Source of the DNA: an uncultured Thomasclavelia sp.
GTDB lineage: Bacteria; Bacillota_I; Bacilli_A; Erysipelotrichales; Coprobacillaceae
Direction: 5' to 3'
Assembly: GCF_944324745.1 (NCBI RefSeq)
Contig: NZ_CALUXO010000029.1
Span: 1-48,793, forward strand
DNA: 48,793 nucleotides
The position numbers were made by a program, and so were the translations under genes. Numbering within the stretch: position 1 is the stretch's first letter; each line of letters opens with the position of its first letter. Below are positions 27,845-45,358 of the stretch, in pieces. The notes below the pieces were generated by a model. That model saw only the letters and a program-made list of their open reading frames with translations, was not told the origin of the DNA and ran no database searches.

Positions 27845-27852
27845 TATTTTTG

Positions 27853-27888: not shown

Positions 27889-27981
27889 GCGTTTATTTAA
27901 ATTAATTTAATCTTGAAAAAATCTTAAGAAAATCGTTAGAAAAATATCATTTTATTTTAAAAATGGTGACAGGTTATTTGG

Positions 27982-28010: not shown

Positions 28011-28058
28011 TTTTACTATAAATCATGTAAAAAATTGAGTGAAAAAGAGGAAAAAACC

Positions 28059-29567
28059 GTGAGAAAAATTAGTCAGGTTAAATACAATAAAATGCATTGC
28101 ACCAGATGTGGTAAGTTTACTGCGGCTGATTTAGCGGGTTTTAATTTTAGTCAAATTTTTGCTAAGTCACTGGTAAATAACGATGTTTATCAGGTGCTAG
28201 CGAGACTGGATTTAAAATTTTATTATACACTTCGAGATCTATGTCAGGAGTTGTCTTTTCAAAAGAAAAATAATGCTATGAGTGTTTTAAATTTAACGGT
28301 CGGTCATGTTATTAAACAAATTGAATTTTTGATGCGACCAGTTACTTTTCAAGAAATTCTCCAAAGTGATCGTAATACTTTGTTATATAATAATTTGTTT
28401 ACAGCTATATATTCTAATCATGAAAATTTTGAAGAAAAAATGCAAGATATTGAACTTTTGATTGACACCTTGTCAAGACATCAATCAGATGAAATTATTA
28501 CTTCAGTTCCAATCGAAATAATTTTTGATTATGATGATTTAAACAATGAAATTCCGGTGGGGATTAGATATTGCGTTAATGACCAGATCCATGAAGAATA
28601 TCAGCGGATTTGTCCTAATTGTGGTAGTGTTTTTGATCGTCAATCGGGATATCATCACGAATTTATTATTGCTATGGTGGGGTTAGGTGATTCTGGTAAA
28701 ACGACATATTTGACAGCTTTGATCGATCAATTAGCTAAAAATATAGATGGAGCCGTTATATCGATTACTGGTGGCAATTGTCAAGCTGTTTTTAAAGATA
28801 ATTTAGATAATTATCATTTAAAAAAAGCTGTGAAGAGAACAACGATCGATAAAATGCCTTTAGTATACTTATCGGTAAAAGTAAATGATAAAGAATTTAA
28901 TTTTGTTTTTGTTGATGTTCCAGGAGATATTTATAATTTTCAAAATGATGCCGGTGCAGATTTTATTAATGAAAAATGTCAGATATTAAAAAATGCTGAT
29001 TTAATTTATTGTTGTGTTGAACCGGCAATGATCAGCTCAAAATATCATAATTTTCATTGGCAACACCAAGATAGTTATGAGGGTTTAGCTAATCTAGCTA
29101 ATAATTTAAATCTTATTTTTTCAAATAAAATACCGGCCGCTATTATATTAACTCAATGTGATTTATTGCAAGAGAGTTATCCTGATATTTATTTACCGGA
29201 AATTGCCGTTTTAGAAGAAGATTTTATTTTAGATGGAAAGTTGAATCTTACTAATGTCAAAGTTCAACAAGAAAAAGTTTGGCAGTATTTTAAAAATATG
29301 AATAGCTTTACTGCTACAATCGATGACTTGTTTGCTGGCTATGCATTCTTTGGAGTTTCTTCTTATGGATTTGATGTTACTGATCCAGCGGTAGTGAATA
29401 AAACACTTAATCCCTCACTGGTTGAATTACCGTTTATTTGGACTCTTGCAGTTTTAGGCTGTATCGATAGTTATGAAATGGATATTAGTAAAAATGTATT
29501 TAAAAAAGAAATAGAACGTTTTAATCTGGTAACTGATAGAAGTAGATTATATTTTAAGGAGCAATAA
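28059..29567 (+). CDS. Zn-ribbon P-loop GTPase, DO-GTPase-like (copy 1)
   Basis: 502 aa from the GTG at 28059, which follows AGAGG at 8 bases; an in-frame ATG at 27963 lies upstream of the transcription start and is rejected. Cys14/Cys17 (CTRC) and Cys185/Cys188 (CPNC) look like two halves of one zinc ribbon split by a ~165-residue helical insert. P-loop GLGDSGKTT at 208-216, Walker B-type FVDVPGD with Asp286, and TQCD at 365-368 in the place of NKxD. The C-terminal SYGFDV...PFIWTLAVLG is shared with the second GTPase of the operon. The style fits the DO-GTPase group of predicted conflict systems; this is from memory of the family. No membrane helix. Confidence 0.75.
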   Translation: MRKISQVKYNKMHCTRCGKFTAADLAGFNFSQIFAKSLVNNDVYQVLARLDLKFYYTLRDLCQELSFQKKNNAMSVLNLTVGHVIKQIEFLMRPVTFQEILQSDRNTLLYNNLFTAIYSNHENFEEKMQDIELLIDTLSRHQSDEIITSVPIEIIFDYDDLNNEIPVGIRYCVNDQIHEEYQRICPNCGSVFDRQSGYHHEFIIAMVGLGDSGKTTYLTALIDQLAKNIDGAVISITGGNCQAVFKDNLDNYHLKKAVKRTTIDKMPLVYLSVKVNDKEFNFVFVDVPGDIYNFQNDAGADFINEKCQILKNADLIYCCVEPAMISSKYHNFHWQHQDSYEGLANLANNLNLIFSNKIPAAIILTQCDLLQESYPDIYLPEIAVLEEDFILDGKLNLTNVKVQQEKVWQYFKNMNSFTATIDDLFAGYAFFGVSSYGFDVTDPAVVNKTLNPSLVELPFIWTLAVLGCIDSYEMDISKNVFKKEIERFNLVTDRSRLYFKEQ

Positions 29568-29570
29568 TTA

Positions 29571-29819
29571 ATGAAATCATTAAAAGAATTAGTTGAAAGC
29601 AAAGAAATTGAATTGGTTGATCATGATCTGATTTATAAATTAATAGCAGTTATGATCATGTTGGGGTTGTTGTTGATTTCATTGGTTATTTGTTTTGATG
29701 GATTTAATAAAATACCGGTTATTGGTAGTGGTTTAAATGCAGTTTTAAATCTAATTAATGAAATAATGGCATTTCTTGCTAATTTAATTAGAAATATTTT
29801 ACAAGTTATCACAAACTAA
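29571..29819 (+). CDS. Small membrane protein of the GTPase operon
   Basis: 82 aa. A charged amphipathic N-terminus (SLKELVESKEIELVDHDLI), one strong membrane helix about residues 24-43 (LIAVMIMLGLLLISLVICF), and a second amphipathic or re-entrant hydrophobic stretch to the end (LNAVLNLINEIMAFLANLIR). Start ATG at 29571 follows AAGGAGCAATAATT, only three bases after GTPase copy 1. Family unknown. Position between the two GTPases suggests a membrane anchor for them, which is an inference. Confidence 0.65.
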   Translation: MKSLKELVESKEIELVDHDLIYKLIAVMIMLGLLLISLVICFDGFNKIPVIGSGLNAVLNLINEIMAFLANLIRNILQVITN

Positions 29820-29842
29820 AAATATGAGTTGGAGGAATAAAT

Positions 29843-31564
29843 ATGGCGTTTCATGTTGTTCATTGTCCCTTATGCGGTCATGTTATGAGTGCTAATGAAT
29901 TAGCCTTTGATTTTGGCGAATTAATTAATATTGCTTTAGAAAAAATGAAAAATCGACATTTTGGTGCTAGTGAAGAGTGGTTTGATCTTACTGGAATCAA
30001 ATTATGTTTATATTTGACTTTAGAAGATTTAGTTAAAGAATATGGTTTTACTAAAGTTAGTGATCATACTTATCAAGGAAAATTTATTTTTACAACCGAT
30101 GATTTAGGGAAACAGTTAGTAAAGATTGCTAATAGCGATAAAGCTTCTATTGATATTTTATCTTTGACAACGGATACGATAGAATACGAGAATCTAACTC
30201 ATTTCATGGCTAAGTCGAAAGATGAAGATCTTGATGAATTAGCAGAAAAAATTCAAGAAATTGCTTATCGAATCAAAAATAATCGGGGTGTGATGATCGT
30301 TAACTTTGATGTAGTCGTTAAAATGCAAGAAGATGACCAGGGCAATCTTTTTGCCAATAAACTCGAAGTCACTTTTGAAGATAAAAAAAATAAAAATATT
30401 TCAAAATTTGTTTGTAAAGGAAAAGATGGTTTTCCTTGTGGTAAAGAATTATATGGTCATGCCGGACGTTATCAGGAAATTATCATCGGTCTAGCTGGAA
30501 CAGCTCGAGTAGGTAAGACGGCTTATCTGGCAGCTTTATTGGCTAGTATCATGAAAGAAGGCAACGGTATTGAATCATTAGGCTTTGATCAAGATGTATT
30601 AATCAATATTGCTTATTCGGGAGAAGGCTGGCGCACATTTAAAGCCGACTTATTAGAACCATATATTTTTGGTAAAAAGATTGCTAAAACACCAGTGTTG
30701 CGGGATACCAGCAGTAATAATAAAGAAGCAGTTCCCTTGTTTTCTTTGACTTTTAGAGTCAATAATCGTCGCAATTATATTTTTACTTTCATTGATATGC
30801 CAGGTGAAGTTTATGATGATGCAATTGATAATGAAACGGGGGCAGATTATGTCAGTGCTCAACGGGAAATTATTAAATCAGCTGATATGATCTGGTTATG
30901 TATTGCACCATCACAAATTGCGAAAAAGCATATTGTTGCCACAGCTGACCAGGTTAATATTAATATTATGGAAGCTTTTGCCAATATTGAAAAAACCATG
31001 CAGGCCATTTCGATGACTAGAAAAATACCAACTGTGGTATTAATTACTCGAAGTGACGAAGCAACAGAGGAATATGGAATCTTTAATCCAGGATTTAATC
31101 CATTTGCTTCGAAGAATAATCCCATGCAATATTTAGAAGATAAAACTAATAAAACCCCTTGGGTCAATGAAAAGGGTGAATTGTTTTATGATAATATGAA
31201 ATGGTTTATTGAAAAATCTTATCGATATTTAAATTTGACCCCAGCAATTCCCGCTACGATAGAAAATATTTTTGGTCCTTTTACTCCATTAGCAGTAGCC
31301 TCATATGGTTTTTCAGTTGATAACCCGCTGGCAGATAAAGCAAGTGGCAGTAATTTACCAACTCCCTCAATGATTGAAGGACCATTTTTATGGACCTTAG
31401 CGACGTTAGAAATTATTCCTGTTTATAAAGAGGAAATGGTCGTTAAAGAACGAAAAAAATTATTTGGATTAGTTAGTGAAACCTATCAGGAATTAGAAAA
31501 TGTTATCGTTAAAAAAGAAGATCTTGATAAAATATTCTATTATCCTTTTCAAGTAGTTAGATAG
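29843..31564 (+). CDS. Zn-ribbon P-loop GTPase, DO-GTPase-like (copy 2)
   Basis: 573 aa; ATG follows TTGGAGGAATAA. Same plan as copy 1: Cys8/Cys11 (CPLC), helical insert, a second pair just before the P-loop (FVCKGKDGFPCGKELYGH), P-loop GTARVGKT at 219-226, FIDMPGE with Asp318, ITRSD at 401-405 for the base, and the C-terminal SYGFSV plus PFLWTLATLE block. A ~40-residue basic extension follows (KEEMVVKERKKLFGLVSETY). The switch and C-terminal blocks are clearly homologous to copy 1 although overall identity is modest. The pair may act as a heterodimer. Nucleotide use is inferred from motifs. Confidence 0.78.
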   Translation: MAFHVVHCPLCGHVMSANELAFDFGELINIALEKMKNRHFGASEEWFDLTGIKLCLYLTLEDLVKEYGFTKVSDHTYQGKFIFTTDDLGKQLVKIANSDKASIDILSLTTDTIEYENLTHFMAKSKDEDLDELAEKIQEIAYRIKNNRGVMIVNFDVVVKMQEDDQGNLFANKLEVTFEDKKNKNISKFVCKGKDGFPCGKELYGHAGRYQEIIIGLAGTARVGKTAYLAALLASIMKEGNGIESLGFDQDVLINIAYSGEGWRTFKADLLEPYIFGKKIAKTPVLRDTSSNNKEAVPLFSLTFRVNNRRNYIFTFIDMPGEVYDDAIDNETGADYVSAQREIIKSADMIWLCIAPSQIAKKHIVATADQVNINIMEAFANIEKTMQAISMTRKIPTVVLITRSDEATEEYGIFNPGFNPFASKNNPMQYLEDKTNKTPWVNEKGELFYDNMKWFIEKSYRYLNLTPAIPATIENIFGPFTPLAVASYGFSVDNPLADKASGSNLPTPSMIEGPFLWTLATLEIIPVYKEEMVVKERKKLFGLVSETYQELENVIVKKEDLDKIFYYPFQVVR

Positions 31565-31573
31565 GGAGGAATT

Positions 31574-33766
31574 ATGATGCAATTATTATATGCAAATGAT
31601 GGAATAAATTATCGAACAATCAGTAAATCAGTTGAACTTACAAGTGGGATTGAACAAGCATTACTACAAACGTATTTAAACTATGATTTTATAGTCAATA
31701 GTTCTAACTATTCATCAATTGAACAGGAACCAGAAACTATTACCTATACAGTTAGTAATTTAAATAATGAATTACCAGAAAATTATTTAATTGTTACTAA
31801 AGCGGGTCATATGAGTAAAATAGCTACACCCAGTTATTACTTTCATGCTTTAATTGAAAAAGTTGACGATGATTTTTTTAAAGAAGATTTTTTTAGGATC
31901 TTTAATTATGAATTTGTTAAAGATCAAGATATCAGTCAATATAATCATCAAAGCATTGATAATTTTCATTTTACAAATAACAATATTCATCAGGTTTTAT
32001 TATCAAAAGAACAAATAGTTTATATTCTAGCAATGTTCATGGATAATGAAAAAAATAATTTAAAAACCAAGATTATTGTTGATGTAAATGGTGATGATTA
32101 TAATCAGCGTTCTCGAGAAATTTTGGCAGCAATTTATTATTATTTACCTTATGGGTTAAGAAAGAGATATGGATTTTCTACTTATCAGCGTCAAGAAATT
32201 ACAAGCGGTAAAATTTCATTTGTCTTATATCCAAAAGAAGAAATAAAAAATATTAATGAGACGTATATTGATTTAAATCAGATAGATTATCAAGCCTTAT
32301 CAGCTAAAATAAACCGCCAATTTTTGGATTATGCTAATTATTTAGTTAATGGTTTAGATGATGTTCAAAGAAAAAAGCATTTTGAAAAATTGTCCCAAAT
32401 TGCCAATCATGGTCGTTTGAAAATTGATGATTGTGTAACTTATTATAATAATTTAAATAAATGGACCAAAGGTCATCAGGAGGAATTATTACCTGAATGG
32501 ATTAATTATGTTGATCAAAATGGTTTTCGAAAAGGCCCATTATTTGAAATGATGCTAGAAATCATAAAATCTAAAATCGATAACCAATATTACAATGATT
32601 ATTTAATTAATCAGGTTTTAAAAGTCCATCAAGAAAAATTATCAGAATTATCGTTAATGGCAGCTAAAACAATTCGTTTTGCTGGTTATTTTGAACATTT
32701 GAAAATTAATCAGGAACAATTTATTAACTGGTATTTTGAATCTGGTAACTTAAAAGAACTAGATAAAACTAATAGTGTTCAAGAAATTATTGAAAATACC
32801 AAAGTCATAGCTGATGAAATTGAACGATTACAGCAGGTAGATATTGGCTCTAAACAGTTACTAGAAATAATTGATCTTATTGTAAATAAACTAACTGATT
32901 TACTAGAAGAAAATAAACAACAACTAGAAGGGCATATCTTAACTGAAGGAGATCGAATTGGTCAGTTGCTTGCTAAGACGACGACCATGAATGTATCAGA
33001 GTTTTCTAATAAAATAAAAGAAATTGAATCTCAAATTGTTTTTGAAGAAAATCAGGAAATATTGCGTTTAGCAATCATTGAATGGCTGGAAAAATACTTA
33101 TCTACTCAAGCTACAAAAAAAGATCTAATGGCGGCAAAGGAATTTGTCAATGATATTCAAGCAACTTTAAGTAATGATGATTATCAAACGATTATGCAGC
33201 AAATAGATATGAAACTAACTGCAATGGCAAAACAAAAACAGCGATTAAATTATCAGATAACTGATCTTAGTTCAGTTTTAAATAATTATCTGCTATTAAC
33301 TGATTATTTGAATAATGGTATGTTTAATAATGATGATCAAGTTAATGTCTTATTTGATAATTTCAATGTTGAAATGGAAGTTAGAATTTTAAAACGATTG
33401 TTAGAGTATTTATTGACAGCTGATCAATATGAAGAGAGCTTTAATCAATATCTTGATCGATTATTTGAATTAAAACTTTTAACACCTGTCCATTTTAAAT
33501 CATTGATAAATGGTAGTAATGATGATTACCAAATCAAAAAGATTACTGATTATTATTTCAAACGTTTTGATCCAATTGAAATATCTGGTAATTATGTTTA
33601 TCAAATTATCGGCGAAGATAAACCGCAACTACTCAAACAATTAGGTAAATATTATCAAAATGATCAAAATTATGAAACTGTAATATTTAGACAGCGAATC
33701 AAAAATAAAGGTGCTGATCAAAATCTAGATAAACTGAAAAAAGGGTTTAAATTATTTAAGAAATAG
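31574..33766 (+). CDS. GAP1-like GTPase-associated protein
   Basis: 730 aa. The N-terminus (MQLLYANDGINYRTISKSVE, then GIEQALLQTYLNYDF) and the later ILAAIYYYLPYGLRKRYGFS with FSTYQRQE resemble GAP1 N-terminal and middle domains, described with DO-GTPases. Residues about 270-730 are almost entirely helical, with coiled-coil stretches (for example 440-560). The tail is basic (LDKLKKGFKLFKK). Soluble, no signal. It begins 9 bases after GTPase copy 2 and its stop overlaps an in-frame GTG of the next gene. Likely role: partner or regulator of the two GTPases. The assignment is by pattern only. Confidence 0.65.
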   Translation: MMQLLYANDGINYRTISKSVELTSGIEQALLQTYLNYDFIVNSSNYSSIEQEPETITYTVSNLNNELPENYLIVTKAGHMSKIATPSYYFHALIEKVDDDFFKEDFFRIFNYEFVKDQDISQYNHQSIDNFHFTNNNIHQVLLSKEQIVYILAMFMDNEKNNLKTKIIVDVNGDDYNQRSREILAAIYYYLPYGLRKRYGFSTYQRQEITSGKISFVLYPKEEIKNINETYIDLNQIDYQALSAKINRQFLDYANYLVNGLDDVQRKKHFEKLSQIANHGRLKIDDCVTYYNNLNKWTKGHQEELLPEWINYVDQNGFRKGPLFEMMLEIIKSKIDNQYYNDYLINQVLKVHQEKLSELSLMAAKTIRFAGYFEHLKINQEQFINWYFESGNLKELDKTNSVQEIIENTKVIADEIERLQQVDIGSKQLLEIIDLIVNKLTDLLEENKQQLEGHILTEGDRIGQLLAKTTTMNVSEFSNKIKEIESQIVFEENQEILRLAIIEWLEKYLSTQATKKDLMAAKEFVNDIQATLSNDDYQTIMQQIDMKLTAMAKQKQRLNYQITDLSSVLNNYLLLTDYLNNGMFNNDDQVNVLFDNFNVEMEVRILKRLLEYLLTADQYEESFNQYLDRLFELKLLTPVHFKSLINGSNDDYQIKKITDYYFKRFDPIEISGNYVYQIIGEDKPQLLKQLGKYYQNDQNYETVIFRQRIKNKGADQNLDKLKKGFKLFKK

Positions 33767-33777
33767 TGGTAATAATT

Positions 33778-34896
33778 ATGGAATATTTATATCAGAAATT
33801 TTTAAATAGCTTAAAAGATTTAAAGCATATTGAATGGTTTGTTGCTCACAGTGACCAATATGAATTTAATTCGATAGAAAGCCAAAGATTAATTGATTCT
33901 TTGTTTAATAAGATTCAAAAGAAAAATATTTTTTATTCGGATATTAAAGCAGAATATCAAAAACTAGTCGGGATGTTTGAAAATAATCCTTTTAACTATA
34001 AATATGATGTATTGCAACGAGATAAAGAAAAGGCAATTACGACTAAATATAAAAATAATTATTTTATCAATATCTCAGATTTACAAGGAAACCAATATCC
34101 AGTGGCGTTTCAATATCTTTTGGATAATCCTCTAGAATATCCATTAGAAAAAATTAACAGTGATTTTGATAATCAGTTAATGAATGATCGAATTATGGTA
34201 GTACAGAATTTTGAAGCTTTACAACAGCGTTATCAACAATACTACAATCAAGATGTTAAGGAAGCTTTAAACGACTATCATAAGATAAACTTTGGTAAAT
34301 CTTATCATTTTATTTCGACAATGATCAGCTTTGTTGTTTATAATTATTTATTGTTTCGTATTGTTTATGAAATCCAATTTTTTAATCTAATTCTCCATTT
34401 TAATCAATATTTTAGTGATAACTATGGTCTGCGTTATTCAGCAAGGCATTTATTAAATGGGCATCCTTATTTAGGTTTAATCATTATCATGTTAATTATA
34501 TATTTTATTTATTTAGATATTCACTATATTTATGGGTTATTTTACAATCTGTATGCCTTTTGTAAATATAACAATATTTATAAACATCATAAAAGAGTAG
34601 TTACTTTATATGACCAGTTTAGTTTTGATTTTAAAGCTTGTCTTAAAGAAAATTTATCTAATCAAATTGTGGTGGCTAATCATCGTGATAATGTCTATCT
34701 TCCATTACTGGAAATGATTAGTCGTAAATATAATTTTTATGGTAAAAAACTAAAACATGAAAAAAGAACTAAGATAAGTGTTTTAGTACCTGATCAAAAA
34801 TTCTACCAAAGGCCTATCTCTCATCAATTAATTAAGTTATTGGTCTTGTTGGTATTGGTAGAAGCTATCTGTCAAGTAACGATGATTATTCAATAG
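33778..34896 (+). CDS. Integral membrane protein of the GTPase operon, unknown family
   Basis: 372 aa if started at ATG 33778; a GTG at 33766 in the same frame overlaps the previous stop and is possible. Residues about 1-170 are soluble and helical (YLYQKFLNSLKDLKHIEWFV). Two aromatic-rich membrane helices lie around 180-215 (FVVYNYLLFRIVYEIQFF) and 235-265 (YLGLIIIMLIIYFIYLDI). A third is at the extreme C-terminus (LIKLLVLLVLVEAICQVTMI). The region between helices 2 and 3 is basic and probably cytoplasmic. No family recognised. It is followed by a 187-base structured leader rather than directly by the next gene. Confidence 0.65.
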   Translation: MEYLYQKFLNSLKDLKHIEWFVAHSDQYEFNSIESQRLIDSLFNKIQKKNIFYSDIKAEYQKLVGMFENNPFNYKYDVLQRDKEKAITTKYKNNYFINISDLQGNQYPVAFQYLLDNPLEYPLEKINSDFDNQLMNDRIMVVQNFEALQQRYQQYYNQDVKEALNDYHKINFGKSYHFISTMISFVVYNYLLFRIVYEIQFFNLILHFNQYFSDNYGLRYSARHLLNGHPYLGLIIIMLIIYFIYLDIHYIYGLFYNLYAFCKYNNIYKHHKRVVTLYDQFSFDFKACLKENLSNQIVVANHRDNVYLPLLEMISRKYNFYGKKLKHEKRTKISVLVPDQKFYQRPISHQLIKLLVLLVLVEAICQVTMIIQ

Positions 34897-34928
34897 TTTG
34901 AATAGAAAGGGGAATTGTAAAAGTAAAG

Positions 34929-35067
34929 TTTATTATTAATCGAAAAATAGAGAAATTATCGATATTACTTATGGGTAAAGCAGACGGTATCGTGCATTTT
35001 AATTTATTTAGATTAATAATAAATTAAAGTTTTAATTACTTGTTTGTGTCCGCTTGTAAAGACGGAC
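34929..35067 (+). promoter_or_regulatory. Candidate structured leader RNA inside the operon
   Basis: An exact 13-bp helix is formed by TTTATTATTAATC (34929-34941) and GATTAATAATAAA (35011-35023), enclosing 69 nt. Inside it CGATAT (34960-34965) pairs with GTATCG (34987-34992), and TTAC...GTAA forms a shorter stem. Downstream, GTCCGCTT (35048-35055) pairs with AAG-CGGAC (35059-35067, one bulged A) seven bases before the GGAGG of the vWA gene. No T-tract, and no match to a riboswitch class I know. It divides the operon into a GTPase half and a vWA/tubulin-like half. Confidence 0.45.
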
Positions 35068-35083
35068 GGAAATGGAGGAAATC

Positions 35084-37288
35084 ATGAAAAAAAAGATTGC
35101 TGTTTTAATTTTAGCTGTTTCGATGATTTTGACTTTTGTAATCAAACCAGTTGCAGCGACAACTGATGATAAACTCTTAGATGTAGTTTTAGTATTAGAT
35201 CAATCGGGATCGATGAAGACCAATGATCCTGATGGTTTAATGAAAGAAGCTGCTCAAACATTTATCACCATGTTACCAGATAACAGTCGTGCTAATATTA
35301 TTACCTTTAACCGTAGTCGCAGTATGTGGCAAAATGGATTGACTGAGTTAAATGATGATAGAACTACCAGATCAGCAACTGACTGGATCAATGATGTTGA
35401 ATATACTGGCGATACTGATCTTTCTAACGCTATTGGTGATGCTGTCGAGATGTTTGATGTATCTGACAATCGCGTTCATGCGATTCTAGTTTTCTCAGAT
35501 GGTCGTAATGACTTTGGCTTTGATAGAAATGAGGAAGTTGCTGCTGATGAAAGATTAAACGATGCTTTAGCACTTGCCAAAAATAATGGAATTCAAATAT
35601 ATTGTATTGGCTATGGTGATGAAATGGTTAATACTAATGATCAGCCTTATCAAAAGTTAGATAGTGTTGCTATCGCCAATTCGGCTAATCGAATTACAAC
35701 GCAAACCGCTCCAACATCAATCAATGATTATTTTAATACTGTAATTGCTGAATTGATGGATGCTAATTTAATTTTGATAAAAGATAATAAAATTAAAATT
35801 GCTTCTAATGTTAAAGAAGCAAATATTAGTATTACTTGTAATGATGATATTGGTGATGCCGGAATAAAACTATTTGATCCTGATGGCAATGAAATCAATT
35901 TTAACAATAATCAAGATGTCAGTTTGCATTTATATCAACATAGCGCAGTAATCAAACTTTATGATCCTGATCCGGGTACTTATACGATTGAAAGTAATAA
36001 GGATATTGCTATTACAACTACCTATATTCCTTATTATCAATATCAATTAAATACTACGATTTTAGATAGTGCCGGACAAGTAGTTGATCATATTAGTAAT
36101 GGGGTCACTTTAACGATAAATTCTACGATCCAGCAAAATGGCAAAAATGTAACCACAGTCGATACTTATGATAACGTTAAGGCTCAAGCTACAATCACAC
36201 CGTTAGATACTAAAGAAAGTAAAACTGTATCATTAAGCTATCAAAATGGCAGCTTTGTAGGAGAAGCAATTTTAGATCATGTAGCTTTATATAATATCGA
36301 TATTTTAGTAGAATCTGATTCATTTAGATTGACAGATTCTATAGAAATTCAAGCTGATAAACAGCCAATAAGTCTAGATATCGATAAACTGAAAAATCAA
36401 GTATTAGATAAAACCTTTAAAAGCAGTGTTACTAAAGAAATCCCAATAGCTACTTTAAATGGAATTGTTAATGATGTTGATGATGTTGGATTTCAAATTA
36501 CTAATGCTACTTCGACTAATCAAGATAATGTTACCGTTCAGTTAAATGATGATTGTTTGATACTAACTGGAACAAGCTGGGGTTCTTCGACGGTTACTTT
36601 GACTTATGAAGATGGCTTAGGTAATCGTGTTGATGCATCATTTTCAGTTAAAGTTAATGATGTGGCTTTAGTTATTTTCTTTGCATCGATTCCATTTATA
36701 ATTGGTTTGCTTGTTTTGATTATTGCTTTGATAATTATTAGACAATCACGATATATCAAAGGAACCTTTACGGTCAATAGCATTACCTATCATCATGATA
36801 TTGAAACATTTAGTATTTCGAATCAAAAAAGTTATTCAAGCAATATTTTCTTAAAAAGAAAGAAAACATTGGCAACAGGAATCAGCTTATACATAAATGA
36901 TCTTTATCATGAAGCTTATAATGATCGAATTGAAACATTGAATAATTTGTTGAATCAAAATCAGGCAATCAAAAAAGGATTAGATGCTGTTAAGTTTATT
37001 GGAACTTACTTAGGACGCAATGGGCTTAAGTTGGTTGTCAAAGATGCTAATGTTTCTTATTCAAATAATTTACGTTATGGAGTTAAAATTATTGAAAATT
37101 GGAAAGATAGCAAAGATTTTGTTTTCTATCTTAAAGATGAAACAGGTTTAGAAATCTGTATTGAAGGATCTTATACATCTTCGATAATTAAAAAAATAAA
37201 TAATACGTTTGATGATACTAAGATATTTAATGATACTACTAATGACCATCAATCATTTGACGAGTTTGATGATTTTAATGATTTTTAG
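35084..37288 (+). CDS. Membrane-anchored extracellular vWA-domain protein
   Basis: 734 aa from ATG 35084, after TGGAGGAAATC; the ATG at 35072 overlaps that ribosome site. Signal peptide 1-25 (ILAVSMILTFVIKPVAA). vWA domain about 30-230 with a complete MIDAS: DQSGS at 39-43, Thr in GDTDLSNA, Asp in VFSDGRND. Two or three beta-sandwich-like repeats follow to about 520. One membrane helix (about 527-552, IPFIIGLLVLIIALIII) precedes a ~180-residue cytoplasmic domain. The extreme C-terminus is SFDEFDDFNDF (724-734). The tail motif recurs at the N-terminus of the second vWA protein. The topology predicts an outside ligand-binding head and an inside effector contact. Confidence 0.8.
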   Translation: MKKKIAVLILAVSMILTFVIKPVAATTDDKLLDVVLVLDQSGSMKTNDPDGLMKEAAQTFITMLPDNSRANIITFNRSRSMWQNGLTELNDDRTTRSATDWINDVEYTGDTDLSNAIGDAVEMFDVSDNRVHAILVFSDGRNDFGFDRNEEVAADERLNDALALAKNNGIQIYCIGYGDEMVNTNDQPYQKLDSVAIANSANRITTQTAPTSINDYFNTVIAELMDANLILIKDNKIKIASNVKEANISITCNDDIGDAGIKLFDPDGNEINFNNNQDVSLHLYQHSAVIKLYDPDPGTYTIESNKDIAITTTYIPYYQYQLNTTILDSAGQVVDHISNGVTLTINSTIQQNGKNVTTVDTYDNVKAQATITPLDTKESKTVSLSYQNGSFVGEAILDHVALYNIDILVESDSFRLTDSIEIQADKQPISLDIDKLKNQVLDKTFKSSVTKEIPIATLNGIVNDVDDVGFQITNATSTNQDNVTVQLNDDCLILTGTSWGSSTVTLTYEDGLGNRVDASFSVKVNDVALVIFFASIPFIIGLLVLIIALIIIRQSRYIKGTFTVNSITYHHDIETFSISNQKSYSSNIFLKRKKTLATGISLYINDLYHEAYNDRIETLNNLLNQNQAIKKGLDAVKFIGTYLGRNGLKLVVKDANVSYSNNLRYGVKIIENWKDSKDFVFYLKDETGLEICIEGSYTSSIIKKINNTFDDTKIFNDTTNDHQSFDEFDDFNDF

Positions 37289-37309
37289 TAAAAGAAAAGA
37301 GGAAAGAGT

Positions 37310-40300
37310 ATGGCACTAAGTCAAATAAAAAAAGATAAATTAAAAGAATTAGAGCTTAACCGTAATGGAGTTGCTTTTGTCAGTGAAAAATCACATGTCA
37401 AGCCTAATCCAACTATTATCATCAGTTTAGGTGGGCTGGGAGCTAAAACAGTCAATATGCTTAAAGGAAAGTTTGAACGAGAAATTGGACAATCTGATAA
37501 AGTTTTCTTTCGAATTTTGGATGCTGACGTTGAAGATACTGATAAAGTTTGCAAGATCAAAAAAGATGGAACCAAGAATAATGATTTAAATGCCCATATG
37601 GATGCTGGGGAAACGATTCCTTTATATGATCCCATTATTAGTCAATTATTATATAAAGAATCAATTCCGCAAAATATTAAAGCCTGGTTAAATCCGGCTT
37701 TAATTGGTACGCCGTTAAGAAACGATGGAGCTCAGCAGACAAGACAGATTGGTCGGGCGATGTTAGTTAATGATACGGTGTATCATAATATTCGAACTAA
37801 ATTCCATACAGTAATTAATAAAGCTATTAGTAAGGCCAATGAAATTAATGGCAATGTTGATGTGATTGTTATTGCTGGGATTTCTGGGGGAACTGGGTCT
37901 GGAACCATTATTGATATTCCATATATGATTCATGATATTTTCAATGAATTAGGTTTTATTAAATATACATTAGCAGGGTATATTTATACCCCGGATGCTC
38001 AATTTGAAGTAGAAGGAATAAAAAATAATGAAAATATCAAACTTAATTTGCAAACGAATGGTTATGCTGCTTTAAAAGAAATTGATTATTTTATGAATAT
38101 TGAAGAAACTGGCAGCAATTATAGTTTAAAGTTAGGCGTTGGCGAAGTTAATTCTAATCGCAATATCTTTTCAGCTTGTACGTTGATTTCTGGTTATTCT
38201 GAAACTGGGGGAATCAATTCTCTAGATTTAACGATGGGGCGCTTGACTGATCAGTTAATGGATATGCTTACCGATATTTCTTTTGTTGATGCTAGTGGTC
38301 AGCCAGTTCAATTAGCTCATTCTTTGATGTCTAATGCTTCACCAATGTTAAAAGCCTGGTTTATCAATCATCCTAATCGTAAGGATTTTCATCGTTATGC
38401 TTCATACAAATATCAAGTATTAGGATATAATGCGATTAAGATTCCTCGGGATGAAATATTAGCTTATTGTGTTAATAAAATTTATGAAAATGTGTTAACT
38501 GAATTTACAAACTTTAAAAATGTCAATAAGAAAATGCTTGATGAAGTTTATGCCACTACTAGTATTGATAATATTGTTTCGGTTAGACAAATGGTTTTAA
38601 CTTTAAATCCTAATGATCCAATTAATCGAAATATTATTATTGATGAACCGATTAAGAAAAATATGGTTAAAAATAATCAGATGTATGGTTATAGTCTAGC
38701 TTCCAATTTGGCGGGCTACTATGCTCAAAAAATTACTAATGCTTATCGCAGTCAGTTTGAACAAAAACTTTATGATGAATTATCTAAACAAGTCGATCGT
38801 ATTTTTAATACCTATGGACCATTTGTAGCTTTAAAAGCGATCAAGCATCAGTCAATTGAAAAAGGAATTGGTGATCCTAATGACGAACCATTTTCTGGAA
38901 TTGAAGAACAGTTATTAAATTTAAGCGATATTTTTAGACAGCAGGCCAAAAAAGCCAAAAATACTTATACTAACGGGGGACAGCAAAAAGTTATCCAGTT
39001 AGCTAACAATGCTACAGGCTTTACCTCAGGTAAAAAAGAGATGAATGAATATAAAGATACATGTGCCAAACTGGCAGTCATTAACATTATTGATGCTCCG
39101 TTATATGATATGATTGCTGATGGTCTGTATAATGTTGCTGTTGAGATTAATCGGTTAAATAATGAAATTTTTGATGTTTATACCTCAGTATTAACCGAAA
39201 TTCAAAAAATCTTGAATCAGGATGGTCAATACTTTTCACAATCTAGTAAACAGACAATTGGAAATACTACTAATTATTCGATTAATATTCTAGCCAGTGG
39301 TGAAGAAAAAGCTAAACGGCTGGAAAAATATCTTGAAAGTTTTATTTCAACTGTTTCTGTTCAAGAATTGGCGCAAAATTTCATTGAAACAATGCGTAAT
39401 AATCGTGAAAAATGGATTGCTCAAAATAATGAAGACGATTTTGATGTTGTAAGTGAAGTAAGAGAGCTGATGGATCAATGTTTGACTCATAATAATATGA
39501 AAACAGATATCATCGAAAAATTTGTGGCTGTTGCCTATAATAGTCAAGACATCACGGCAGAAGAATTAGATGCTATTTGGTCTGATAATAGTCCAGGTTC
39601 TCCTAAAATGGATGCTTTAAATGCTGCTGCTTTGGAAATTTATAATGCCTTAGAAAATGGAGCTAAAACATTAGCCCAATCAACTGGTATTTCTTTTAAA
39701 CAGTTTACTTCTCAAGTATATATGGGAACTTTAGCTGATACACCATTATTATCAAAAATCTTAGCGGAAATGATTATTCAAAGAGGCAATACACCAGCTA
39801 CAAGTAATGCTAAAAATAAATTTATAGTTACTCAGCGTTATGTCAATTTACCAATGTATATTTTAAAAGGGATGGAGAAGTTAGACGAACATTATAATCA
39901 AAATCCAAGTGCTGGTCGTCATATGGATGAAAACAACGAATATTGGACGCGTTTCCCGAACCCATATACCATCGATAGTGTTGCCAAAGATATTTCTGCT
40001 CGTAATGAAGTTTATGAGGTAATTGAAAATAATTCAGATTACAAATTTTTAATGAAAGTTAAACAAGAAGTTGATTTAGGAATTGATTACTTAAAATCAA
40101 TTGATTTAAGTATCAATCCGCAAACAAATAAATGGGAAATGAAGCTTATGGATATTGTCCGGGAACCAGAATTAGATACTTTTAAGGCCGCATTAACAAA
40201 AAAGATTAAACGGAATCAAGAAATAAATTTGATTGAATTTATGAAAGAAAACGGCTATGTAATTAATGAAGTATTAGTAAGTATTGGTGATACGGATATT

Positions 40301-40966
40301 GATTTGAGTATTCGTGATTTAGAGCGTGATGTCAGTGGTAATGATGCTTTAAAATACCAAGATTTACCAGTTCCAATTGCTGATATGTATAAATGGATTC
40401 GTAAGTCAATTAAATATATGGATATTATTGAAAAAAATAATCCTAAATTCCAAAAAATTCACGATTTAATTGAAGAAATTACCAAAAGTGTTAATGAAAA
40501 TCGACAATTCATTGATAATGTTGAAACATTTGCGTTTTGTCTTAGAACTGGTTTGGTTAAACAAAAAGAAAGTGATAAAAATGTCTGGATGTATCTAAAC
40601 GGTAAAGATCCAGTTACTGTTAATTTAAATATAGCTAAATCATTTGATCGCAAATATTACTTATATAATGTTTTCAAACAGTTTACCAAAACTGACCCTA
40701 ATCGTTTGGCAATGCTAAAACGTCAGGCTATTAATTTAATCGAATCTAGTCAGCAGGTAGATTATCAAACAATTTTAGAACATATCAAATTTGTTTTAAG
40801 TAATGAAGATTTAGGTGATCCATTTAAGTGGGAAGATATTAATGATGAAGCTTTTTTACAAGGGGTAGCTGAAAAATATTGTATTACTGATGAAGAATTT
40901 GATGATGCTAATCCAGCTAAAGATCTGCTACGTTTCTATAAATTAATCTTAACGAATATGGAGTAA
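37310..40966 (+). CDS. Large tubulin/FtsZ-like protein (Tubulin_2 type)
   Basis: 1218 aa; ATG follows AGAGGAAAGAGT. Residues 35-47 (TIIISLGGLGAKT) form the first nucleotide-binding loop, and 190-200 (GISGGTGSGTI, core G193-G198) match the tubulin/FtsZ signature GGGTG[S/T]G. ILDADVED and GYAALKEIDYFMNI are further Tubulin_2-like pieces. Residues about 450-1218 are a long helical extension, far larger than FtsZ (~350-400 aa in total), ending DEEFDDANPAKDLLRFYKLI. No signal or membrane helix, so cytoplasmic. GTP-dependent polymerisation is predicted from the fold and not shown. It lies between the two vWA genes with a 597-aa protein of unknown fold. Confidence 0.75.
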   Translation: MALSQIKKDKLKELELNRNGVAFVSEKSHVKPNPTIIISLGGLGAKTVNMLKGKFEREIGQSDKVFFRILDADVEDTDKVCKIKKDGTKNNDLNAHMDAGETIPLYDPIISQLLYKESIPQNIKAWLNPALIGTPLRNDGAQQTRQIGRAMLVNDTVYHNIRTKFHTVINKAISKANEINGNVDVIVIAGISGGTGSGTIIDIPYMIHDIFNELGFIKYTLAGYIYTPDAQFEVEGIKNNENIKLNLQTNGYAALKEIDYFMNIEETGSNYSLKLGVGEVNSNRNIFSACTLISGYSETGGINSLDLTMGRLTDQLMDMLTDISFVDASGQPVQLAHSLMSNASPMLKAWFINHPNRKDFHRYASYKYQVLGYNAIKIPRDEILAYCVNKIYENVLTEFTNFKNVNKKMLDEVYATTSIDNIVSVRQMVLTLNPNDPINRNIIIDEPIKKNMVKNNQMYGYSLASNLAGYYAQKITNAYRSQFEQKLYDELSKQVDRIFNTYGPFVALKAIKHQSIEKGIGDPNDEPFSGIEEQLLNLSDIFRQQAKKAKNTYTNGGQQKVIQLANNATGFTSGKKEMNEYKDTCAKLAVINIIDAPLYDMIADGLYNVAVEINRLNNEIFDVYTSVLTEIQKILNQDGQYFSQSSKQTIGNTTNYSINILASGEEKAKRLEKYLESFISTVSVQELAQNFIETMRNNREKWIAQNNEDDFDVVSEVRELMDQCLTHNNMKTDIIEKFVAVAYNSQDITAEELDAIWSDNSPGSPKMDALNAAALEIYNALENGAKTLAQSTGISFKQFTSQVYMGTLADTPLLSKILAEMIIQRGNTPATSNAKNKFIVTQRYVNLPMYILKGMEKLDEHYNQNPSAGRHMDENNEYWTRFPNPYTIDSVAKDISARNEVYEVIENNSDYKFLMKVKQEVDLGIDYLKSIDLSINPQTNKWEMKLMDIVREPELDTFKAALTKKIKRNQEINLIEFMKENGYVINEVLVSIGDTDIDLSIRDLERDVSGNDALKYQDLPVPIADMYKWIRKSIKYMDIIEKNNPKFQKIHDLIEEITKSVNENRQFIDNVETFAFCLRTGLVKQKESDKNVWMYLNGKDPVTVNLNIAKSFDRKYYLYNVFKQFTKTDPNRLAMLKRQAINLIESSQQVDYQTILEHIKFVLSNEDLGDPFKWEDINDEAFLQGVAEKYCITDEEFDDANPAKDLLRFYKLILTNME

Positions 40967-40986
40967 TATTAATTAAAGGACGGAAA

Positions 40987-42780
40987 ATGGATATGAATAA
41001 TATTATTAGCGAGGATAAAGAAACGGTTAAAAAAAGTATCAATGCTTTTTGTAATGAATTATATAACTTAGAATATACCGGTTATATTAATGTTCCAGTA
41101 GTCATTATCTTGTATTTAGGCGATGATTCTTTTAAACAAGTAAATGCATCTTTAGAAGATGCATTTACTAATGCTTTTAGTCAGCCACTTCCATTAACGC
41201 AAATGATAATTGAATCTGATATGACCAAAGATAATTTAGTTGATATGATCAAAAATGCGATTAAAGAGGTCTCTAATCAAGGCAAAAATTTCAATGATAT
41301 TCGGATTGGTTTTATTACGATGATGAACGATAGCTTTTTTGATCGAACTAACCATGATTTAATAAATGAAATTGCTATGACTTTTGAAGATTTACAATAT
41401 TTAGGACTGAATTTGTCAAAACGAGCTTTATATGGTTTATTTGATCAAAATTTAATGAACATCAATTATCAAAAAGCCTTTTTATTTATTAATCAGGGTA
41501 AACAAATCTGGAATAACATTTATCATCTTGAGATTCCTTTTGTAGCTAAAGATATTACCAGTCAAACGCAGCTGATAGCTTTAAATATGATTAGGGATAA
41601 ATATCTAAATAAACAAAATACCCTTAATGATGATTATTGCTGGAGCTCGTTATATTTAAATTATTTAAGAATTCCTGAATTTATCACTTGTCGGCTGTTA
41701 AGGGAAATATATGGTCAACAAATTGATAATAAAATTGATACTAGTGATTTAGATGAAAGTGTTAATAATGTTTTAGATTTATTATTTGAAGATCTTTTAA
41801 ATGTTAACGATCAAGGAATTTGGCAATATGTGCCATTAAATTATCAAGAAACGGTTACGCCCAAAAAGAAATTAAGTCTTAGCTTTTTTAATAAAAATAA
41901 ACAGGATATTACACCAGTATATAGTCATGTTTTAAAAGATGAACATGGTATGGAAGAATTAGTAAAGCAATTGTATGCCAAGATTACTATTGATGATAAT
42001 AATTACAGTAAAATAATTGAAAAAATTATTAGTTCAGCTAAAGTTATCGATCCTAATGCGGCCAATATTGGTCATCAAATTATTATGATTTTAAATCGAC
42101 GCCAGGAGCAGCTCGATTATCAAATTAGTCAGTTACAGGAAAAGCAAGTTAGTGATAATGGCATTAAAAATGTTAATGAGTATTTACGCCAAGAATATCA
42201 ATATTATCAAAAAATTATTTCATTGATAAAAGAAAAAGATATTATTGAACAAATTAAAAAAAATATCTCGAATGATATGGTTTTAAAACAAGTTATTGAT
42301 GAAATTGTTAAAGTTAATCATTATTATGCTAATCTGTTAGATGAATTAGCTTTAACAGAATATGGCGGTACTTTGGAAATGTTACATATACATAATTTAC
42401 CGTTATTTGAAGTTAATTTATCAATTGAAGAAATCTTAAAACGAATTGACAAAAATTTTGTTAATGAAATTATTAATAATAATCAGTCATTATTACAGCG
42501 ATTACAGTTATTTTTAAATCATACGCTCTTAAATGATATCTCATATAAGCATAATCTTGGAATCATTAATAAACAATATACTAATATCAAAGATATTGTC
42601 TCATATTTATTATTACCTACTTCATTAGATAATCATATCGATATCAAAGATATTACTAGTAATTATGAAAATCTTTTGAAAGATGTTAATGATATATATC
42701 GAAATAATTCATTTTATCTTATTTCTACTCGTATTTATGATTCTGATAAATATATCGTTAATTATAAAAGGGGTGATTGA
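40987..42780 (+). CDS. Unknown 597-aa cytoplasmic protein beside the tubulin-like gene
   Basis: ATG 40987 follows AAAGGACGG. Residues about 20-150 look like an alpha/beta domain (VPVVIILYLGDDSFKQV, IRIGFITMMNDSFFD). The middle is helical with ALYGLFDQNLMNINYQKAFL and a likely coiled coil about 365-440 (RRQEQLDYQISQLQEKQ). No P-loop, tubulin signature, signal peptide or membrane helix was found. It starts 20 bases after the tubulin-like gene and ends two bases before the next start codon, so it is tightly coupled. An accessory or capping partner of the tubulin-like protein is a guess from position only. Confidence 0.65.
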   Translation: MDMNNIISEDKETVKKSINAFCNELYNLEYTGYINVPVVIILYLGDDSFKQVNASLEDAFTNAFSQPLPLTQMIIESDMTKDNLVDMIKNAIKEVSNQGKNFNDIRIGFITMMNDSFFDRTNHDLINEIAMTFEDLQYLGLNLSKRALYGLFDQNLMNINYQKAFLFINQGKQIWNNIYHLEIPFVAKDITSQTQLIALNMIRDKYLNKQNTLNDDYCWSSLYLNYLRIPEFITCRLLREIYGQQIDNKIDTSDLDESVNNVLDLLFEDLLNVNDQGIWQYVPLNYQETVTPKKKLSLSFFNKNKQDITPVYSHVLKDEHGMEELVKQLYAKITIDDNNYSKIIEKIISSAKVIDPNAANIGHQIIMILNRRQEQLDYQISQLQEKQVSDNGIKNVNEYLRQEYQYYQKIISLIKEKDIIEQIKKNISNDMVLKQVIDEIVKVNHYYANLLDELALTEYGGTLEMLHIHNLPLFEVNLSIEEILKRIDKNFVNEIINNNQSLLQRLQLFLNHTLLNDISYKHNLGIINKQYTNIKDIVSYLLLPTSLDNHIDIKDITSNYENLLKDVNDIYRNNSFYLISTRIYDSDKYIVNYKRGD

Positions 42781-42782
42781 TA

Positions 42783-44132
42783 ATGGATTTTAATGATTTT
42801 GATGATTTTACAGATCAAATAGAGTCCAATAATCAATTTAAAACATCATCAAAAACTAATAAATCATTTGATTTTATAACTTTATTAGTCAGTCTTATTG
42901 GTGGTATAGCCGGTTATTTTATTTCTGGTTATGTCTATCAAGTTATCAATGATAGCTGGTGGTCACCTTTGGCTATAGGAATAAGACTGTTGATCTTTTT
43001 TCTAGTAGTATTCGGATTTGTTTTAGGATATAGTTTGATTAAAGGAAACTTGCAGCAAAGTCGTAATTCAATTGGAAAGAATATAACTTTTTTGATTATT
43101 ACAGCTGTTCTGGTTTTTATTTTAGCAGCATTTTTTGAATTTATTTATGAAATGGATTTTTTCAAAAAACCCATTGTAACTAGTGATGCTTCGGCCTATA
43201 TTTTTGTCATTGATAATTCCTCATCAATGGATAATAATGATCCTGATAATTTAAGATATGCTGCAATTAATGATATTATGGCCGATAAATCGGCTGATTT
43301 CTTGTGTGCTGTTTATAGTTTTAATGAACAAGTAATATGTCAAAGGGATTTTGCGCCTAAGTCTTTATCAAGTGGCAATTTAGAGCCTTTAAATTCCGGT
43401 CAAACATATATCAAAAAGGCATTACAGGAAATCTTAAATGAATATCAAAATAATCGTTTTTCTGCAGCCAAACCAGGACTCAAAGTATTATTTTTATCGG
43501 ATGGAAATGGAAGTGATATTAGTGGAATTGATGATATTTCATCAATCTTAGATGAATATCTTAATAATAATATTGCTATCTCTACGGTTGGATTAGGAAA
43601 TGATGATGAAACATTAATGCAGGAGATTGCTTATCGTACTGGTGGTATCTATGTCAGTATTGATGATGCCAGTCAATTAAGTACGGCAATGACATCAGCA
43701 ATTGAACAATCAAGTAATCCGTATGCGCGTACGCTATTTACTTATCGTAATGTTCCATCTTTAGATATTTTATATGCTTTGATGCGAATTATCTTTACAG
43801 TAGCGTTAGGATTATTGATTTCGGTTTCCATGATTTTTGCAACGGGAAAAGATAACGACTATTCACTGTTGATCATTGGATCAATTATAACTTCTGTAAT
43901 TGCTGGGATATTATTAGAACTGGGTATCAATTTATTTAAATTGGATCCTAGTTTAATGACATTGATATATATGCTTTTAGTAGCCAGTATTTTTGTTTAT
44001 ATGATATCAATTAATATTTCAACCGGGCATCATAATTTATATACTAGTAATCATAAATATCATTCAAGTATCAATAATAATATCAGTAATAAACGAAATG
44101 TTAATAATGGAGATAATAATTTACGTTTTTAA
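42783..44132 (+). CDS. Polytopic membrane protein with extracellular vWA domain
   Basis: 449 aa; ATG 42783 follows AAAAGGGGTGATTG. The N-terminus MDFNDFDDFTDQ is cytoplasmic by positive-inside reasoning. Three membrane helices follow (about 36-55, 62-85, 100-122). Then comes a vWA domain (about 138-310) with complete MIDAS: DNSSS at 144-148, Thr in SGQTYIKKA, Asp in FLSDGNGSD. Three more helices (about 325-350, 355-380, 395-415) and an Asn/Ser-rich tail end the protein. MIDAS context SMDNNDPDN parallels SMKTNDPDG of the other vWA protein, so the domains are probably paralogous. Odd number of helices before the domain places it outside the cell. Confidence 0.78.
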   Translation: MDFNDFDDFTDQIESNNQFKTSSKTNKSFDFITLLVSLIGGIAGYFISGYVYQVINDSWWSPLAIGIRLLIFFLVVFGFVLGYSLIKGNLQQSRNSIGKNITFLIITAVLVFILAAFFEFIYEMDFFKKPIVTSDASAYIFVIDNSSSMDNNDPDNLRYAAINDIMADKSADFLCAVYSFNEQVICQRDFAPKSLSSGNLEPLNSGQTYIKKALQEILNEYQNNRFSAAKPGLKVLFLSDGNGSDISGIDDISSILDEYLNNNIAISTVGLGNDDETLMQEIAYRTGGIYVSIDDASQLSTAMTSAIEQSSNPYARTLFTYRNVPSLDILYALMRIIFTVALGLLISVSMIFATGKDNDYSLLIIGSIITSVIAGILLELGINLFKLDPSLMTLIYMLLVASIFVYMISINISTGHHNLYTSNHKYHSSINNNISNKRNVNNGDNNLRF

Positions 44133-44141
44133 TAGGAGAAA

Positions 44142-44726
44142 ATGATGATTAAGGCAATAAAAGTTGAGAGTAAACATGATTTAGTAAGGGTAGCTAACGC
44201 AGTAAAAGGAAATCCTGATGATGAATTTGATTATTTATTAGAGTTTGTTCCTAATAAAGATTCGGTTAATTTTGAAAATAATGTAATAGTTGGTAAAACT
44301 ATTTTGCGTCATCAAATTAATAGTCAACTGTTAATTTCATATGATTTTAAGCTTAATCGAGGATTATATGATGTAATTGTCACTCAGATTGATTCTGTCA
44401 GTGAAGATGAAATAAAATTAATTGAAAATACTCGTGAAAAATATAATCAGCCGGTAATGGTTGGGGGAAAATATAAAGTTAAAGTTAGTTTGGCTATTCA
44501 AGAGTGTTATGGTTATCAAGGCCTAAAAGTTTCCATTGTCAGTGAAGAAGTCCCTTTAGATTCTAAAACCATTTATTATAAAATATTAAAAGAAGAATTG
44601 AAAGATATTCGTTACTACGTTCCATTTAATAATAGTAAACAAATTGAGTTTTTTGTTAAGGGGGTAGTTAAGGATAATTTTGAATTAAATTTAGAAAATC
44701 CTAGTTTTGAAATTCAATATCTTTAA
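44142..44726 (+). CDS. Unknown 194-aa protein, last intact gene of the operon
   Basis: Begins at one of two adjacent ATGs (44142/44145) after TAGGAG. Cytoplasmic by composition, alternating charged and beta-prone segments (VGGKYKVKVSLAIQECYGYQ, IRYYVPFNNSKQIEFFVKG); no motif recognised. It starts 9 bases after the second vWA gene, so it belongs to the operon. It may be a small adaptor, but nothing in the sequence shows this. Confidence 0.6.
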   Translation: MMIKAIKVESKHDLVRVANAVKGNPDDEFDYLLEFVPNKDSVNFENNVIVGKTILRHQINSQLLISYDFKLNRGLYDVIVTQIDSVSEDEIKLIENTREKYNQPVMVGGKYKVKVSLAIQECYGYQGLKVSIVSEEVPLDSKTIYYKILKEELKDIRYYVPFNNSKQIEFFVKGVVKDNFELNLENPSFEIQYL

Positions 44727-44749
44727 TGTTTATCTTAGAGGAATATTAG

Positions 44750-45358
44750 ATGAAAGAACGAATAAAAATGACTCAAGGATTAAAATATAATCCAGTTAAT
44801 TTAAAATTAGTTTATGATCGATATTATGCCAATAAAATTTGTCAAAAATACAATCGTCAGGTATTTAATGAAATAAATTTACGATCTAGACTGCTTAAAA
44901 AGCTCATTCATGCTCAAGGAAATTTTTGGATCAAACCACCAATTTATTTCGATTATGGCTATAATATTTATCTAGGTAAAAACGTAATGCTCAATTATGA
45001 TTGCGTTATTTTAGATGTATGTTCAGTTACTATTGGTAATGATACTTTAATTGGTCTTGAAAGAGAAACTAGCTTAATGCTTAGAGATACTGTTAAAAAA
45101 TATCAAATGAAAGTTTTAACTCACACTGCTGTTCAAGAAATTAAAGATGATCAAGTAATCATGTCACGTAAAGGAAAAGAATTGGTTTTAGATGAAATTG
45201 ATACAGTTGTAGTAGCTGCTGGTTCTAAATCGGTTAATGATTTAGTGGCTCCTTTAGAAAAAGCTGGAGTGAAAATTACAGTTGTGGGTGATGCTAAACA
45301 AGTTCGTAATGGCTTGGCTGCAGTTTATGAAGGTTATATGGCTGGTTATCAAGCATAA
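44750..45358 (+). pseudogene. Chimeric remnant: maltose O-acetyltransferase head fused to FAD oxidoreductase tail
   Basis: 202 aa made of two unrelated parts. Residues 1-~103 match the start of maltose/galactoside acetyltransferases (NLKLVYDRYYANKICQKYNR, IYFDYGYNIYLGKNVMLNYD, CVILDVCSVTIGNDTLIG). The left-handed helix stops before the active-site His. From about LERETSLMLRDTVKKY to the end it reads like the last ~95 residues of an enoate reductase/NADH:flavin oxidoreductase (DEIDTVVVAAGSKSVND, ITVVGDAKQVRNGLAAVYEG). The join near 45055-45065 is in frame. Both enzymes would be inactive, so I treat it as a deletion-fusion remnant, though the ORF is open and has a start codon. Confidence 0.75.

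Follow-up and report, generated by a model that had tools for sequence, protein, structure and literature searches.

A tubulin-like giant in a ten-gene cassette

The window analysed here, a stretch of 48,793 nucleotides from a gut bacterium, an uncultured Thomasclavelia sp. (contig NZ_CALUXO010000029.1), contains a run of ten genes on the forward strand (27963-44726, +) that, together with its flanks (27845-44749), forms a cassette of 17 kb. One of these genes (37310-40966, +) starts with ATG, has no internal stop codons and encodes P0001, a tubulin-like protein of 1218 amino acids. The adjoining gene (40987-42780, +) encodes P0008, a protein of 597 amino acids that we consider, by its predicted fold, a candidate pseudo-tubulin. 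The remaining genes encode putative GTPases, a GTPase-associated protein, von Willebrand factor A (vWA) proteins and several predicted membrane proteins. According to the predicted structures, a long helical insert may divide the tubulin body of P0001, and P0008 may be built in the same way.

Residues 36-396 of P0001 match the Pfam family Tubulin_2 (PF13809) with 165.4 bits (E 2.9e-48; curated cut-off 27 bits) over profile positions 1-355 of 356, and the same family is matched by all 13 aligned relatives, whose identity to P0001 goes from 83% down to 21%. The glycine loops T1 (GGLGAKT, residues 41-47) and T4 (GGTGSG, residues 193-198) lie exactly where an earlier note on this DNA, made from the sequence alone, had located them, and among the 13 relatives their key glycines vary little or not at all. 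Since both loops are intact, GTP or a related nucleotide is the probable ligand of P0001. The FtsZ profile aligns from T1 to T4 of P0001 (P 0.002), not with T7, and a sequence search of solved structures with P0001 or with its alignment gave no match. Judged by the Pfam match, P0001 belongs to the FtsZl1/Tubulin_2 family known since 2010. The genome contains one PF13809 match, and it also encodes a separate, ordinary FtsZ of 365 amino acids, adjoining an ftsA-like gene; thus, P0001 is not the division FtsZ. It is 3.3 times larger than this FtsZ, in agreement with the threefold size given in the earlier note. No relatives were found in the plasmid, phage and IMG/VR contig collections searched, and therefore an origin from a plasmid TubZ or a phage PhuZ is unsupported.

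Predicted folds of P0001 and P0008

The structure of P0001 was modelled with AlphaFold2 (residues 1-1200, 13 sequences). The tubulin GTPase domain is present in the model, as expected from the tubulin/FtsZ-like identity proposed in the earlier note. The best match among solved structures is CetZ1, with Z 25.1 and a root mean square deviation (rmsd) of 3.1 over 309 of 330 residues, covering the model range 33-867, followed by the c-st TubZ (Z 23.3), FtsZ (Z 20-21) and tubulins (Z of about 20); in these matches the model range goes from about 31 to 850-879. The match takes in nearly the whole of CetZ1, and therefore residues located behind the coiled coil of P0001 must contribute to the predicted fold. 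CetZ (4b46, 3zid), the closest solved fold, has neither the insert nor the tail described below, and it is only 9-12% identical to P0001.

The first part of the tubulin fold, comprising the nucleotide-binding half and the start of the C-terminal domain, would occupy residues 36-400 (37415-38509, +), according to the Pfam match and the secondary structure of the model, with helix H7 placed at 305-319 and with a strand (368-377) and a helix (380-400) of the C-terminal domain. The PF13809 match ends at residue 396, where a predicted helical and coiled-coil insert starts (residues 401-795, approximately; 38510-39694, +) that includes the helices 531-568 and 575-644. The rest of the C-terminal domain is predicted at residues 796-871, approximately (39695-39922, +), as a strand (801-807), a helix (812-824), two strands (828-832 and 837-847) and a helix (855-864). 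The insert boundaries are estimates, read from the secondary structure and from the ranges of the fold alignments, which end at 867-879. Behind this domain there is a tail of about 340 residues (880-1218, approximately), mixed alpha/beta and helical, with a helix at 1034-1079 and modelled poorly past residue 1097 or so. Therefore, P0001 seems to contain a complete tubulin fold, with a helical insert of about 395 residues dividing its C-terminal domain and with the tail behind it; insert and tail together make up about 60% of the protein. The helical extension of about 800 residues that the earlier note had described has to be divided accordingly: its helical, coiled-coil nature holds for residues 401-795, approximately, but the tubulin part reaches to about residue 400, residues 796-870 would complete the fold, and the tail is mixed. 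The insert might serve as a stalk or in lateral contacts, roles that the note had suggested for the extension as a whole. For a distant branch of the family (L059, L060 and L061) we do not claim that the C-terminal domain is completed in this way, because the expected place was aligned but 43 of 200 shuffles scored as high.

The FtsZl1 family was described as proteins of about 1050 amino acids composed of an N-terminal FtsZ-like domain, an extended coiled coil and a helical C-terminal domain, encoded next to genes for proteins with vWA and GTPase domains (Makarova and Koonin, 2010; PMC2875224). P0001 shares with them the glycine loop of the N-terminal FtsZ-like domain, the long coiled coil, the helical C-terminal part, the length of at least some 1050 amino acids and the vWA and divergent GTPase neighbours. 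In contrast, neither T6-H7 elements nor any likeness to the C-terminal domain of FtsZ or tubulin were found in 2010, whereas the model of P0001 predicts a complete, interrupted tubulin fold. FtsZl1/Tubulin_2 proteins have been left out of studies on tubulin evolution (PMC9871819, PMC2875224) because their C-terminal half resisted alignment and their domain layout looked irregular. If residues 796-870 complete the fold, they would supply the part that could not be found in 2010, the family would consist of full tubulins, and polymerisation would be directly testable with the existing interface models.

P0008 matches no Pfam family, and none of its nine orthologues matches a tubulin family. Its model has a predicted local distance difference test (pLDDT) of 78.8 and a predicted template modelling score (pTM) of 0.76, both better than those of P0001 (see below). 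When this model was compared using VIA, the 50 matches listed all belonged to the tubulin superfamily (Z 13-14.5, spanning residues 36-597), headed by tubulin (Z 14.5, rmsd 4.2, 261 residues), with CetZ at Z 14.3 and BtubB at Z 14.2. The model contains a strand (219-228) and a helix (229-247) followed by a helical insert, at about 250-535, and by another strand (538-543), and the same order of elements, i.e., strand, helix, helical insert, strand, helix, strand, strand, ends the predicted fold in both P0001 and P0008. When the family profiles were compared with the inserts removed, residues 364-400 of P0001 aligned with residues 214-247 of P0008 (both approximate), that is, with the structurally matching strand and helix; the score of 22.9 was reached by 6 of 300 column shuffles (mean 15.8, standard deviation 2.7). 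The T4 glycine loop GGGTG(S/T)G is missing in P0008, and MMNDSFF or a similar sequence occupies its place in all nine sequences aligned. Taken together, the models suggest that P0008 is a second tubulin-fold protein with a layout like that of P0001, which would have lost the phosphate-binding loop and would be blind to GTP. A sequence search of solved structures with P0008 yielded only angiotensin-converting enzyme (E 0.003, 70 residues), a match taken as chance since the folds differ.

The P0008 family was found in eight of the 98 related genomes surveyed, all of them carrying a long Tubulin_2 of the P0001 type, and in none of the others. This co-occurrence is expected, and is weak evidence of interaction, because both genes belong to one cassette. 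By analogy, BtubA/BtubB and alpha/beta-tubulin are also pairs of different tubulin-fold proteins, the genes adjoining as here; however, in the Btub and tubulin pairs each partner binds nucleotide while P0008 lacks the loop. Co-assembly of the pair in the window would be hypothetical. Locus L020 (3-6655) has two tandem Tubulin_2 genes, whose products reach 33% and 28% identity to P0001 in the best-matching segments, and a P0008-type gene behind them, so that as many as three tubulin-like proteins may be encoded there. The genes of about 650 codons located behind Tubulin_2 in L058, L059 and L060 encode proteins with a hydrophobic stretch that are 11-16% identical to the P0008 family. We found no papers on pseudo-tubulins in the literature searched.

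Gene content, insertion and distribution of the cassette

The first gene of the operon (27963-29567, +) has a GTG start and encodes a DO-GTPase-like protein of 534 amino acids (protein 1) with CxxC pairs and a putative P-loop GTPase domain at residues 235-401, approximately. Its scores for PF19993 (DO-GTPase2) and PF19975 (26.6 bits each) are just under the cut-off of 27, and its score for MMR_HSR1 (21.9 bits) is at the cut-off. With the neighbouring pieces of the frame included, the DO-GTPase score rises from 26.6 to 27.9 bits. There follow genes that encode a putative membrane protein of 82 amino acids (29571-29819, +; hydropathy segment 18-52), whose place is kept in several relatives; a second DO-GTPase of 573 amino acids with an N-terminal CxxC (29843-31564, +; PF19993, 40 bits, cut-off 27); the GTPase-associated protein 1 (GAP1) of 730 amino acids (31574-33766, +; PF20014, GAP1-M, 25.2 bits, cut-off 24), whose N-terminal domain gave no Pfam match for the N2 subtype; a protein of 376 amino acids, also kept in relatives, with membrane segments predicted by hydropathy near 182-259 and 350-376 (33766-34896, +); and a vWA protein (35072-37288, +; PF00092, 58 bits) with an N-terminal signal-like segment and a predicted membrane segment at about 525-562. 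Residues 249-307 of this vWA protein might form a CopC/YtkA-like domain, a weak match (E 0.0067) below the cut-off. Behind P0001 and P0008 lie a second vWA protein (42777-44132, +; PF00092, 36 bits), with several predicted membrane segments on either side of the vWA domain, and a protein of 194 amino acids that closes the cassette (44142-44726, +), without Pfam match and kept in order in the relatives. No fibronectin type III protein was recognised by Pfam in the cassette. Relatives at 31-71% identity show the same gene arrangement, which around the tubulin gene extends more widely still: the conserved order is GTPase, GTPase, GAP1, vWA, Tubulin_2, 597-amino-acid protein, vWA and 194-amino-acid protein, down to about 30% protein identity.

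The cassette is inserted between rlmD and an acetyltransferase gene (27845-44749). The empty site is found in a genome of the same genus (G002), where rlmD and the acetyltransferase gene, separated by the cassette in the window, are direct neighbours in this order. The location of the cassette is different in other genomes: the genes that flank it in the window were not found in the stretches around the cassette of L014, L017, L018 and L021. Tubulin_2 occurs in 11 of the 98 related genomes, three of the 11 having a short or divergent type; of the eight other genomes that belong to the genus, only one has it. A Thomasclavelia sp. genome (G008) carries a relative at 83% identity. The cassette is a sporadic, mobile insertion, probably acquired horizontally.

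At the right border of the insertion, the window contains a chimeric open reading frame (44750-45358, +) whose first 100 residues or so match a maltose-type acetyltransferase, intact (184 amino acids) in G002, while the remainder corresponds to the C-terminal part of a pyridine-nucleotide oxidoreductase. The short-chain dehydrogenase/reductase gene located behind the acetyltransferase gene in G002 (L045, 5941-6762) was not seen at this place of the window, and the chimera looks like the product of a deletion that fused two genes. Other variants were observed among the related genomes. Genome G022 has an orphan Tubulin_2 of 250 amino acids with T1 and T4 loops (L011, 1285-2037) that may be a remnant, since no C-terminal part or cassette genes were recognised within the 3.4 kb seen. 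Genome G353 contains a tandem duplication (L058, 6611-19049; L059, 38-10484) of a different cassette type, which encodes a vWA-like protein, a Tubulin_2, a protein of about 650 amino acids and a very large membrane protein; the first Tubulin_2 of the tandem appears as two frames that overlap (432 and 756 amino acids), owing to a frameshift or a sequencing error. The full cassette is also present in L018, whose source strain is recorded as [Clostridium] spiroforme; the cells of this species are known to form helically coiled chains. Since the cassette is sporadic, a link with cell shape is only a thought.

By its domain content, the gene set of the window corresponds in most of its parts to the GAP1-N2 system of tubulin type that Kaur et al. 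described (2020; PMC7159879). According to these authors, about half of the DO-GTPase/GAP1-N2 systems carry a tubulin, and in Firmicutes such a system comprises two genes for a tubulin with a coiled coil and another two for vWA proteins. The window shares with this theme the two GTPases, GAP1, a tubulin with a coiled coil, two vWA proteins, one of them with membrane segments around the vWA domain, the Firmicutes host and the mobile neighbourhood. It differs in having one recognisable Tubulin_2, the second tubulin-like gene being such by predicted fold only and without the glycine loop, and in the lack of a recognisable fibronectin type III protein. The vWA protein fused to YtkA in the theme has as its counterpart in the window just the CopC/YtkA match mentioned above. 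The bacterium of the window is, to our knowledge, not multicellular, which is a further difference from the published theme. The mention of two tubulin genes in Firmicutes may partly anticipate our finding on P0008. No later work on GAP1-N2 tubulin cassettes and no experimental work on the role of DO-GTPase/GAP1 cassettes were found in the literature searched. The giant tubulin family and the gene set had thus been described already; the nucleotide-blind neighbour and the interrupted fold that the model suggests go beyond the published accounts that we found.

Proposed role and alternative explanations

The explanation that we prefer, to which we would give slightly less than an even chance, is that P0001 is the FtsZl1/Tubulin_2 protein of an acquired DO-GTPase/GAP1/vWA cassette, with an interrupted tubulin fold, and works with the pseudo-tubulin P0008 in a membrane-proximal assembly controlled by GTP. 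The two vWA membrane proteins would sense something at the envelope, and the paired GTPases with GAP1 would act as a switch in the cytoplasm, controlling the assembly of P0001 and P0008 at the membrane as the structural output. The helical inserts might be projecting arms for contact with partners. A bolder version, a two-protein polymer in which the GTP-binding giant tubulin and an obligate, loop-less pseudo-tubulin, both bearing long helical arms at an equivalent point of the C-terminal domain, co-assemble at the membrane under the paired GTPases, appears unlikely to us. It would be unusual for a polymer to be built or capped by a pair of tubulins of which one binds nucleotide and the other is blind to it. 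The P0001/P0008 pairing also offers a concrete handle on the role of DO-GTPase/GAP1 cassettes.

Several results speak against the preferred explanation. The confidence of the P0001 model is moderate (pLDDT 68.6, pTM 0.51), and Foldseek ranked FtsZ first for this model, yet with an E value of only 0.006. For P0008 the Foldseek result was ambiguous, with mixed, weak matches among which tubulin came ninth (E 0.12); the full-length profiles of the P0001 and P0008 families matched only in the coiled-coil stretch and not in the tubulin region, and the sequence support for P0008 as a tubulin relative is weak. The PADLOC defence models found nothing in the cassette beyond a trivial P-loop match. Finally, an NxDxxD/E motif was not found in residues 320-367 of P0001, between H7 and the next strand, and the inferred place of the catalytic acid, located by secondary structure and by eye, is occupied by H, E, Q, A, K or D among the 13 sequences. 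As the T7 acid is not conserved, an FtsZ-like trans-activation of GTP hydrolysis is unsupported by conservation, and a classical polymer GTPase in P0001 is doubtful. The earlier note had pointed to the catalytic Asp of the T7 loop as a check and had imagined large, decorated filaments, an idea that finds no support in this result. The guanine-contact residues of P0001 are not conserved in the alignment either.

These two last observations, the large share of P0001 taken by insert and tail, and the fact that filament formation by FtsZl1 was left undecided, with no filaments listed as an option (PMC2875224), would fit a non-filamentous GTP-binding switch or scaffold, in which the tubulin fold is a regulated platform while insert and tail do the work. 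Nevertheless, every characterised member of the tubulin superfamily polymerises (PMC2875224), and a complete fold is predicted for P0001; we regard such a switch as improbable. The lack of conservation of the T7 acid at its inferred place also speaks against the membrane-remodelling machine proposed by Makarova and Koonin (PMC2875224), where the tubulin would polymerise alone and shape membranes, the vWA proteins and GTPases being accessory and P0008 an adaptor rather than a subunit. The several predicted membrane proteins of the cassette agree with this published proposal, but it leaves unexplained the strict pairing with a tubulin-like partner, and we do not expect it to be correct as it stands. 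A somewhat better candidate, still on the unlikely side, is the anti-invader conflict system of Kaur et al. (PMC7159879), in which the tubulin effector would assemble on infection and block the intruder or kill the cell. The genes recognised in the window agree with those that were published for the GAP1-N2 tubulin theme, and a defence cassette that moves between genomes would be in line with the sporadic presence and with the unoccupied site of a sister genome; however, no nuclease, NADase or pore effector was recognised, PADLOC added only the trivial match, and mobility is common to many accessory functions. Moreover, an anti-invader role would refine the preferred explanation instead of being incompatible with it, and both defence and membrane remodelling are compatible with the proposed switch mechanism. 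The possibility that P0008 is an unrelated Rossmann-like protein with a coiled coil, and its tubulin match an artefact of structure prediction, would agree with the mixed Foldseek matches and with the mean pLDDT, above 70 in only two of the five P0008 models. We consider it very unlikely, given that the VIA matches listed are all to the tubulin superfamily and involve residues on either side of the insert, at the two ends of the protein, and that P0008 shares the layout of P0001, with the shuffle test pointing in the same direction.

Outside the cassette, the window contains a gene (18401-19333, +) for a HAD-domain protein of the kind found in the 'Swiss Army Knife' RNA repair proteins, located between genes that encode a UvrD-type helicase and a DNA ligase.

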